A stretch of DNA of 64,000 bases from a bacterium (GTDB lineage Bacteria > Caldisericota > Caldisericia > Cryosericales > Cryosericaceae): assembly GCA_021373025.1 (NCBI GenBank), contig JAJFTL010000064.1:1-64000 (forward strand), in the 5' to 3' direction. The notes below the pieces were generated by a model. The model ran no database searches. It saw only the letters and a list, made by a program, of their open reading frames with translations, and was not told the DNA's origin. This document shows positions 32,223 to 35,888 of this stretch, piece after piece (within the stretch, counting starts at the first letter, position 1; each line of letters opens with the position of its first letter). Both the position numbers and the translations under genes were made by a program.

Positions 32223-32335
32223 CGCATACGCGACTGGGAAGCAGTAGTTGATCCCAGGGCTGTTGACAACGTCAGCCATGACGCTATAGATGGACTGAGC
32301 CGCACGTGAATGCAGCAAGGCGGGGGGAGTGTGCT

Positions 32336-34744
32336 GTGGAACTCAGGGGACGTGTTCTTCATGAGCGGTACAGGATCTACGAAGTGGCCGGAAGCGCAGG
32401 AATGGCTACTGTCTGTCTGGCTCGCGAGATCGCCACCTCCAATATCGTTGCCGTTCTGGTCCTGGAACCGCCGCTGACGCGGGACGCCGGCTCAGTACGG
32501 CGCTTTCTGCGGTCCGCGCAGCTGGGCGCAGGGTCCGGCCACCCATATGTGGCACCTGTCGAGGACTATGGCCAGGAACAGGACATCTGCTACATGGTGA
32601 CGGGGTTTGGCCCTCAGGGAGTTACGCTGGCCGAATTGGAGCACAGAAGTGGTGTCGTCCCACCAGCTCAGGCTGCGTGGATCAGTTCGTGCATTGCCTC
32701 TGCGCTTGAGGCGGCAGCCGCATTCGGTGGCATTCCATTCCATGGCGCGCTTTCCCCTGCCGGTATCATCATCACTGCCTCCGGTGACGCGCAGGTCACT
32801 GGTTTCGGTACTGCGCCTGCATCCGGAGCAATTGACCGTGCCCTGGGAGAGCAGGCTGCAGCGTATGCGGCCCCGGAGCAGCTGGACGGCCGTGGCGTCG
32901 ACATGCGTTCTGATCTGTACACACTTGGTGCGATCCTGTATGAGATGCTGACGGGACGAGTTCCCCTGGTCTCCGAGGTGCGCTCGTTTCTGACGTTCAG
33001 TGGCTCGGTCCAGACGGAGCGATTTCTGGAGAAAATTCCCGCTCAGCTGCGTCCGGTGATTTCTGGCTTGGTGAGATGGAACCCTGATGAGCGGTTTGCT
33101 GCCCCCGGAGATGTCCTGCAAGCTCTTGCAACCGCAGGCTTTCCACCGCCGCAGCGGCCAATGAGCGACGCTGTCGGACCGGGGAGGGAACATGGGCCGG
33201 TACTGGACGAGCTGGAGAGACCAGAGCGAGCTGCAGCACCCGTGCATATGGTTGGGATGGAGCAGCTGTACGCGCAGGAACAAAAGGGGACCGCTTCCCA
33301 GCCAGAGGAGACTGCACCCCTCACCGGGGGCGTTGGACGTGCGGAGATTCCGCTTCCAGAAGAGGGATTGACCTGGGAAGTCGCTGGTCCGACGGAGCAG
33401 GTGGTAACGACGCTTCTGGATGCTGTTTCCACTGCAGTACCTGGGTGGAGGAAGGCAAGACGCTGGATGGTGCCCCTGGCGGCCGGCATTGTTGTCGCAG
33501 CCGTTGTGGGCTACCTGGTCATCGCCAGGCCATTCAGCCATAGTTCCACAGGGCCTGGTGGAACGGCTACCAAGCCCTCTGGCAGTCAGACAGTGGACAT
33601 GGGCACACTGAATGTGACCTCTGTTCCTGCTGGGGCTCGGGTCCTGGTGGACGGCGTCGACACCGGCAAGGTCACCCCCGTCACGCTGTCAGCGATGGTT
33701 CCGGGAAGCCATGGCATCGCCCTGCAGCTGGCAGGATATGAGGAAGACCACCGGACCGTTGCGGTGTCGGCTGGCGCGACGTCCACCGTGCAGATGTCAC
33801 TGGCAAAGCGGCCGGATGCGACGGGTTCCTCCACCGTGCCCACGAAGCCGCCGGCGACCTCCGAACCCGTTCAGGCGGCGACCACACTGCGTGTGACATC
33901 ATCGCCTGCAGGGGCTGCCATCATCCTCGATGCCAGGGAGTCGGGCAGGCAGACGCCAGCCACGCTGACCGTGGCTGCTGGCAGCCATACGGTTGGACTG
34001 CGCCTGACAGGATATGACATGGTGACGCGAAGGGTCAACGTCATCAAGGGGAAGCAGACATTAGTGTCCATTCCTCTCAGCAAGGCCGCTCCTGTGGTTA
34101 TGGGATCGCTTCGCATCGAATCAGTACCGGCAGGGGCTGCCATCAGGATTGATGGCAAGACGGTGGCTGGACGAACTCCATTGACGACAGCCGTTACCCT
34201 GGGGCATCACGCAATTCAGGTGACGCTCTCGGGATATGAACCCTGGTCGCGTACAGGCGTGGACGTTGTCAAAGGCATTCAGACAGTCATCGTGGCGCGG
34301 CTTGCGCCGCTCCCGGTCGATCTAAGTTTCACGAGCAGGACAGGCGGATTTGGCTTCGTGTATCCATCGACATGGCAGGTGCTGGAGAAACCTGATACTA
34401 CGGAACCTTTTGTGCAGGTAGAAGCCCGCTCCCTGGAGGGGCCCTTCGTGCGGGTTCTGGTCATTCCCTTGAACGGAGCATCGCTGCAGACGTATCTGGC
34501 AGATCTCAGGAGCACCCTGCAGAACTCTTCAGGTCTCGTGATCACTGCGTCGGGGGTCAGGGTGGTGAATGGCATTGCCTATGAGCATCTTGTGACAGTG
34601 CGCGCCGGAAGTCAGACAGAGTACTGTCTATTACAGTCCGCCGGCAGCGTCTATCAGCTCGAGTGTACTGCCGGGATGGCTCTGCTGGCCTCCTCTGCCC
34701 GTGGCTTCCAGACGATCCTGGGTTCGTTCTTCACTGCTCCCTGA
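32336..34744 (+). CDS. Membrane pseudokinase with three PEGA domains and a PsbP-like end
   Basis: An 802-residue protein. Residues 1-270 have the Ser/Thr kinase fold (VLHERYRIYEVAGSAGMATV, GEQAAAYAAPEQLDGRGVDM, SDLYTLGAILYEMLTGRVP). The ATP lysine is Leu (VAVLVLEPP), the HRD Asp is missing (FHGALSPAGI) and DFG reads TGFG, so it is a pseudokinase. A linker and membrane helix (about 377-397) lead to three PEGA repeats (about 422-490, 515-580, 590-655) and a PsbP/DUF1795-like domain (660-802). GTG 32336 follows GGGGGGAG; GTG 32306 in frame is less likely. It probably relays or scaffolds envelope signals. Confidence 0.87.
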   Translation: MELRGRVLHERYRIYEVAGSAGMATVCLAREIATSNIVAVLVLEPPLTRDAGSVRRFLRSAQLGAGSGHPYVAPVEDYGQEQDICYMVTGFGPQGVTLAELEHRSGVVPPAQAAWISSCIASALEAAAAFGGIPFHGALSPAGIIITASGDAQVTGFGTAPASGAIDRALGEQAAAYAAPEQLDGRGVDMRSDLYTLGAILYEMLTGRVPLVSEVRSFLTFSGSVQTERFLEKIPAQLRPVISGLVRWNPDERFAAPGDVLQALATAGFPPPQRPMSDAVGPGREHGPVLDELERPERAAAPVHMVGMEQLYAQEQKGTASQPEETAPLTGGVGRAEIPLPEEGLTWEVAGPTEQVVTTLLDAVSTAVPGWRKARRWMVPLAAGIVVAAVVGYLVIARPFSHSSTGPGGTATKPSGSQTVDMGTLNVTSVPAGARVLVDGVDTGKVTPVTLSAMVPGSHGIALQLAGYEEDHRTVAVSAGATSTVQMSLAKRPDATGSSTVPTKPPATSEPVQAATTLRVTSSPAGAAIILDARESGRQTPATLTVAAGSHTVGLRLTGYDMVTRRVNVIKGKQTLVSIPLSKAAPVVMGSLRIESVPAGAAIRIDGKTVAGRTPLTTAVTLGHHAIQVTLSGYEPWSRTGVDVVKGIQTVIVARLAPLPVDLSFTSRTGGFGFVYPSTWQVLEKPDTTEPFVQVEARSLEGPFVRVLVIPLNGASLQTYLADLRSTLQNSSGLVITASGVRVVNGIAYEHLVTVRAGSQTEYCLLQSAGSVYQLECTAGMALLASSARGFQTILGSFFTAP

Positions 34745-34856: not shown

Positions 34857-35888
34857 ATGGACAGGACACAGACGAAGCTGCTACGGGCACTGATGAAACA
34901 ACCTCTCAGCTTCTGGCAACTGGTGGGCAAGCAGGACGATGCCATTCCCGGCTATCTCGATGCGCTGAAGAAGCTGAAGATCAAGGGGTACATCGAGGCA
35001 AAGGGCGACCTCATTGCCATCACGAAGGACGGTAGGGAATACGCCCGCGCTGGTGGCGTCGAGCGGGAAGAGTCGATGGTATGTCCGACGTGCGGTGCAA
35101 CGGGGGTCAAGCCCCATGGATGGCTGAAGGGCATCATGCCCCAATACGAGGCGCTGGCAAGGGGGCGTCCCGAGGTCACGGCGGAGTTCGACCAGGGTGT
35201 TGTGCCTCTTGAGAAGAACCTTGATCGTATCGCGTATATCTACGAGCGTGGAGACCTTGAGAACAGGAGCATCTTCATCCTGGGAGATGACGATATCCTC
35301 AGCATTGGGCTTGCCTTAACGGGCAAGTGCAAGAGAATTACGGTGGTCGAAATCGACAAGCGCATCAACAAATTCATCCGCAAGGTCATCAGAGAGCAAG
35401 GCTGGACGAATGTCGAGGTCTATGACTATGATGCACGTGATCCTGTGCCCGAGGAACTGAAGGGAAAGTTCGACGTTTTCATCACGGATCCCGTTGAGAC
35501 GGTCGAGGGGATGAAGCTGTTTTATTCACGATGCAGCGAGGCTCTCCGGGGCAAGGGCTGTTCGGGGTACTTTGGCGTGTCGCATTTTGAGTCTGGGCTG
35601 GCCAAGTGGATGGGAGTCGAGAAGAATCTGCTTCGCATGAACCTGGTCATTACGGACATCCTGCGAGACTTCAACGACTATCTGCTCACTGGCGACCGCA
35701 TCATCGAGAAGGGGTTCCGCATCGTCACCGAGTCGCCGTTTCCTCTCAAAGCCCCAGACTTCGCGTGGTATCACTCGTCGTTCTTCCGCGTTGAGGCGGT
35801 CAAGAAGCCTCGTCCACTGATCACCAAGGCCGTTGAATGGGCCCGCGAGCTGTATTTTGACGAGGACACGTTTGTAGCGCTGCCCTGA
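34857..35888 (+). CDS. bpsA: N4-bis(aminopropyl)spermidine synthase-like (BpsA family)
   Basis: A 343-residue protein. An N-terminal winged helix (LLRALMKQPLSFWQLVGKQ) is followed by a CPTCGATG knuckle. A Rossmann aminopropyltransferase domain then shows ILGDDDILSIGLALTG (about 140-155), VVEIDKRINKFI and the ITDPVETVEGMKLFYSRC motif of BpsA. Known members use decarboxylated SAM to make quaternary branched polyamines in thermophiles. No speE/speD is in the window. It is first in a likely operon with NUDIX and YifB genes (gaps of 17 and -26 bases). Confidence 0.85.
   Translation: MDRTQTKLLRALMKQPLSFWQLVGKQDDAIPGYLDALKKLKIKGYIEAKGDLIAITKDGREYARAGGVEREESMVCPTCGATGVKPHGWLKGIMPQYEALARGRPEVTAEFDQGVVPLEKNLDRIAYIYERGDLENRSIFILGDDDILSIGLALTGKCKRITVVEIDKRINKFIRKVIREQGWTNVEVYDYDARDPVPEELKGKFDVFITDPVETVEGMKLFYSRCSEALRGKGCSGYFGVSHFESGLAKWMGVEKNLLRMNLVITDILRDFNDYLLTGDRIIEKGFRIVTESPFPLKAPDFAWYHSSFFRVEAVKKPRPLITKAVEWARELYFDEDTFVALP

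Follow-up and report, generated by a model that had tools for sequence, protein, structure and literature searches.

A gene at positions 32336..34744 (+) of the window, the whole stretch of 64,000 nucleotides analysed here, raises the question of why a membrane protein would keep a kinase fold from which the catalytic residues have gone, and what such a protein could do. The window corresponds to contig C55 of a genome assembly (G000) that spans 1.6 Mb with a completeness of 97.9%. The gene forms an open frame of 802 codons from a GTG at 32336 to the stop codon at 34744. A second GTG is found upstream, at 32306. The start at 32336 is preceded by a GGGGGGAG stretch and its context (GTGGAACTMA) is kept in the orthologues checked. 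The window copy was studied together with orthologues from genomes G028, G030, G032 and G034, all belonging to one uncultured genus; two of them come from Lake Pavin MAGs (“Caldiserica bacterium”). The pseudokinase sample is thus small: five sequences of one genus, taken from MAG assemblies.

The domain architecture is well delimited. Pfam assigns residues 14-256 to Pkinase (E 7e-16; 58.8 bits versus a cut-off of 31.7) and phmmer matches the kinase domain to Mycobacterium tuberculosis PknB (1.4e-28). The AF2 model of this domain (pLDDT 82, pTM 0.84) has PknB as its top PDB match in Foldseek (1mru; 1e-17, TM 0.68-0.72); the underlying alignment of fetched loci included intact homologues, and the model supports the fold, not the details of the dead active site. 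Profile score and predicted structure together point to a protein kinase fold, positioned at residues about 12-256 (32369..33103, +). Hydropathy analysis gives one strong helix (peak 2.48 at residue 378), as it does in all orthologues, and the transmembrane (TM) segment was placed at residues about 375-400 (33458..33535, +). Owing to the Arg/Lys residues ahead of this helix, the kinase part is predicted to lie on the cytoplasmic side of the membrane and the PEGA/PsbP part on the outer side. Three Pfam PEGA stretches follow (6e-44), at residues 422-492 (33599..33811, +) and 516-583 (33881..34084, +), both positioned by motif, and at residues 590-657 (34103..34306, +), where the motif is joined by the AF2 model and by transthyretin-like Foldseek matches.

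The C-terminal domain (residues 659-802; 34310..34741, +) matches PsbP_2 in the window protein below the curated cut-off (E 0.025; 15.0 bits versus 27). The homologous domain of a protein from genome G006 (see below) scores above it (6e-11, 43 bits). Modelling of residues 590-802 by AF2 (pLDDT 88) yields a transthyretin-like PEGA domain and then a PsbP fold, with PsbP structures as top Foldseek matches (1e-7), which argues for a PsbP-like structure of this end. Cysteines 764 and 777 (within 34619-34672) are invariant in the five pseudokinases and absent from the homologues of G006 and G017; they sit on neighbouring strands of the predicted fold, and a disulfide between them is possible. The initial annotation, made from the sequence alone, had described a membrane protein with PEGA repeats and a PsbP-like end whose frame and fold motifs are preserved over 802 residues, and had proposed structure prediction as a check. 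All of these points agree with the results, including the kinase and PsbP folds of the models.

Loss of the catalytic residues was assessed against PknB and 24 other kinase homologues fetched from the phylum, some of them partial. The VAIK site reads VAVL (32447..32464, +), Lys41 being replaced by Leu in all five sequences. In the catalytic loop (HGALSPAGI; 32741..32767, +) HRD has become HGA in every copy, with Ala in place of Asp; the loop Lys is replaced by Ser (Arg in two orthologues) and the Asn by Gly (Asp or Ser in two orthologues, Asp being the residue of G030). The DFG site reads GFG (32801..32809, +), or GCG in G034. The αC Glu is replaced by Ser in the window copy and in its orthologues. 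All six key residues (Lys, αC Glu, HRD Asp, loop Lys, Asn and DFG Asp) are therefore replaced in 5/5 sequences, whereas the 24 other homologues without exception keep all six at the positions covered. The phmmer alignment to PknB places VAVL on VAIK, HGALSPAG on HRDxKPxN and GFG on DFG with no shifts, and alignment with catalytically intact homologues confirms the placement of VAVL, HGA and GFG. The replacements of the VAIK Lys and of the DFG Asp given in the initial annotation were thus borne out, and nothing was found of the shifted catalytic residues that it had named as evidence against itself. The HRD Asp, which it called missing, is indeed lost, though by substitution, and its list, right as far as it went, omitted the αC Glu, the loop Lys and the Asn. 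The sole other D-[FY]-G motif of the domain (“EDYG”, residues 75-78) was considered as a displaced DFG and rejected, as it aligns with the β4 segment “VKDFG” of intact homologues.

The activation loop is shortened to 20 residues, compared with 21-24 in intact homologues, and the Thr of the GTPxY motif, found in 12/12 intact homologues, is Ala (A174). The loop length of L043, a false pattern match, is left out of this range. The HRD His, APE, αF Asp and αI Arg are retained in all five sequences and the DFG Phe in four. By sequence, the protein has none of the residues on which the known phosphotransfer mechanism depends. The window copy does not qualify as a catalytically competent Hanks-type Ser/Thr kinase, six residues being lost, and classes as a pseudokinase on sequence grounds: the canonical catalytic motifs have gone and their loss is conserved among orthologues.

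The same architecture exists with an intact kinase. Two of the homologues, from G006 (L043:3022-5442) and G017 (L042:2276-4882), genomes of another family in the same class, carry in the order of the window protein an intact kinase domain, a TM helix, three PEGA domains and a C-terminal domain homologous to its own; they differ from it by their catalytic residues and by their gene neighbourhood. Identity to the window protein is 33-34% in the kinase domain and 21-25% in the C-terminal segment, and when profiles of the C-terminal domain are compared between the five orthologues and G006/G017, the match is weak taken alone (36% probability, E 4e-4). A domain combination unique to the window protein, considered as an explanation, is rejected by these proteins: the search in related genomes that the initial annotation had suggested found the architecture, and its view of the C-terminal combination as unusual did not hold. 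A tree built from 27 kinase domains unites the five pseudokinases in one clade (100/100) within a kinase-PEGA group (95/96); the stem measures 2.5 substitutions per column and the tips 0.02-0.16. The placement of the clade inside that group is uncertain, and the composition of four of the five pseudokinase rows is flagged as unusual. With its kinase and TM segments, several PEGA domains and this clade membership, the window protein belongs to the kinase-PEGA receptor proteins of its class. The presence of the same architecture in G006/G017 makes the domain combination inherited and the catalytic loss new. The simplest reading of the sequences is loss of catalysis by a complete receptor kinase whose architecture was retained. 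PEGA repeats are also found elsewhere in the genus: G030 encodes a 1273-codon frame (L051:2271-6089) with an intact kinase, five PEGA domains and PQQ-type β-propeller matches, and G000 a 359-codon frame with several PEGA repeats (G000:C36:176638-177477, −), PEGA frames of similar size being present across the genus.

Does selection act on the dead domain? Rates were estimated by NG86 on the unsaturated close pairs G028-G032 and G030-G034, for which kinase-domain dN/dS is 0.14 and 0.165, respectively. In the close pairs it is 0.11-0.165 for the C-terminal domain; the linker has values of 0.37-0.75 and the neighbouring ABC subunit of 0.08-0.16. Deep pairs are near synonymous saturation and were used for identity only: in comparisons with G000 no segment is as conserved as the kinase domain (71-75% amino acid identity versus 51-62% for PEGA and C-terminal domains). 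Within the kinase segment 178 of 285 positions are invariant among the five pseudokinases, and 63 of these invariant residues are absent from all 12 intact homologues in the comparison. Four genomes have intact frames of about 800 codons, the orthologues being 57-60% identical to the window protein. The G034 orthologue is frameshifted near the TM region, which may reflect either an error of assembly or real decay. The sequence data show purifying selection on the dead kinase domain, supporting the proposal of the initial annotation that selection keeps a non-catalytic protein.

The gene lies in a conserved setting. The order ABC1-ABC2-gene-BpsA-Nudix-ComM is found in G000 and the orthologues as far as contigs reach, and in G031 the C-terminal end of the gene is kept at a contig edge. 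The product of the window BpsA gene (34857-35888) belongs to the BpsA_C family (Pfam 2e-73) of branched-chain polyamine synthases and has about 90% identity to its counterparts in relatives; the gene adjoins Nudix-like and ComM-like genes. Sequence comparison identified a putative promoter of the pseudokinase gene (TTGACA-N16-TATAGAT; 32263..32291, +), similar in G030, G028 and G032; a strict consensus promoter scan did not list this site. BpsA is preceded by another promoter-like sequence. The promoter-like sequences suggest that the pseudokinase gene stands alone. An operon with the ABC exporter or with BpsA finds no support, given these separate sequences and the persistence of the neighbours without the gene.

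The site is empty in G024, where about 110 bp separate ABC2 from BpsA and no gene intervenes. In G036 an eroded relic is found directly behind ABC2 (G036:C4 after 50477; L138 from 3616). Within 240 bp, four short stretches match the G028 gene region in collinear order (one the promoter, two the kinase domain and one the C-terminal domain), the best scoring 54.5 bits versus at most 30.1 in 200 shuffles. The BpsA locus of G036 is on a contig (C46; L082) other than that of ABC2, and upstream of BpsA an ORF resembling by eye an IS110-type transposase occupies the place where the ABC and pseudokinase genes stand elsewhere. In a tree of neighbouring genes G000 diverges earliest, G024, G026 and G036 being nested (moderate support); the gene was therefore ancestral in the sampled clade and lost later. 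The empty site and the shredded relic also mean that unneeded copies do decay. Absence from six further genomes of the genus says little, because BpsA and ComM matches are missing there too.

The remaining signalling repertoire was searched for kinases with the Pkinase model only, atypical kinases being outside its scope. With this model G000 has no match besides the window protein, and the pseudokinase is also the sole match in G028 (96% complete), G032 and G034. No FHA match was found in G000 or G028; G000 has one PP2C-type phosphatase match, because of which some Ser/Thr phosphorylation may occur there. G030 has two other kinase matches and one FHA match. Clusters with seven FHA matches and several kinase matches are present in G036 (C11 and C24) and absent from most of the genus.

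Known systems offer several points of comparison. PknB-type Hanks receptor kinases, PknB being the best sequence and fold match of the window kinase domain, share its fold and the order of cytoplasmic kinase, TM helix and extracytoplasmic repeats, but they carry PASTA repeats and catalytic residues where the window protein has PEGA/PsbP domains and no catalytic residues. GLW, ActPs and other bacterial pseudokinases (PMC12599244) have lost all three motifs, as has the window protein. These families occur in other taxa. By published features, GLW, ActPs2 and ActPs3 (PMC12599244) resemble it in the TM helix that follows the kinase domain, and GLW proteins also have Leu for the β3 Lys (PMC12599244). 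GLW proteins have GLW at the HRD position whereas the window clade has HGA in 5/5 sequences, which places it outside that group. For the ActPs1-3, CP1, DYD and DLHK pseudokinases the comparison covered partial features. EssB/YukC of type VII secretion (PMC12599244) is likewise a membrane pseudokinase with all motifs degraded; it has another ectodomain, and the identified neighbours of the window gene include no type VII genes. “PEGA” does not appear in the text of that review of bacterial pseudokinases (PMC12599244), and our search of the literature yielded no paper devoted to kinase-PEGA proteins, its two matches mentioning the terms in passing only.

We rather favour a single-pass membrane receptor pseudokinase, derived from a PknB-like kinase-TM-3 PEGA-PsbP ancestor, that signals through binding and conformation instead of phosphotransfer. 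The PEGA/PsbP part would contact an envelope component or ligand outside the membrane; this contact would shift the cytoplasmic pseudokinase domain to another conformation or dimer state, and the domain would act by binding a cytoplasmic partner as scaffold or allosteric switch, with no phosphorylation. We infer the receptor and sensor roles. Precedents are the EssB/YukC and MviN pseudokinase domains, which work through recruitment and dimerisation (PMC12599244). The neighbours name no partner, as the ABC exporter subunit and BpsA are also present in G024, which has no such gene. It is unlikely, if conceivable, that function resides in the ectodomain, as an envelope tether or structural sensor, with the pseudokinase as a folded cytoplasmic anchor or assembly platform devoid of signalling. 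Retention of the three PEGA domains, TM helix and PsbP fold in complete orthologues fits that idea, as does the C-terminal dN/dS, which in close pairs is no higher than the kinase-domain value; however, conservation peaks in the kinase domain in the deep G000 comparisons, and a mere anchor need not be constrained at so many positions invariant here and in no intact homologue.

Simple decay of a former kinase under relaxed selection is improbable. The loss in G024, the fragments in G036 and the frameshift of the G034 assembly would be expected from it, but not four full-length frames with a dN/dS of 0.14-0.17 in the dead domain, nor loss states that are identical or nearly so in all five sequences when the G036 relic shows what decay looks like. 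A further mode of action has been established for one membrane pseudokinase, MviN, which is phosphorylated from outside by an active Hanks kinase and read by an FHA protein, a pathway requiring PknB and FhaA (PMC12599244). The kinase and FHA matches of G030 would allow such a role there, but the second Hanks kinase and the FHA protein have no match in G000 or G028, both nearly complete, and no pathway of this type was found in G000. The window protein is thus probably not the phosphorylated partner of another Hanks-type kinase, and we regard that role as very improbable. Least credible of all is a catalytic activity of another kind, such as the AMPylation or glutamylation known from SelO and SidJ. 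Bacteria do have pseudokinases repurposed in this way (PMC12599244), but SidJ uses the ATP-binding Lys and metal-binding Asp, and SelO keeps the Lys and DYG (Table 1 of PMC12599244), while every sequence of the window clade has lost the Lys, the Glu, the Asn and both Asp, save for the Asp at the Asn position in G030.

Most bacterial pseudokinases still await a function. The receptor described here occurs in both states within one class, intact in another family and dead in this genus, and it is lost or shredded in sister species. Together these states provide a clean natural comparison of what a kinase fold does when catalysis is gone. In the genomes concerned, a second Hanks kinase appears to be ruled out as a source of phosphorylation. 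More tentatively, and with somewhat less confidence than even chances would warrant, the sole Hanks-type kinase-fold protein of such an organism may be a dead receptor: phosphorylation would have been abandoned and signalling left to pure protein binding, with neither partner kinase nor FHA reader.
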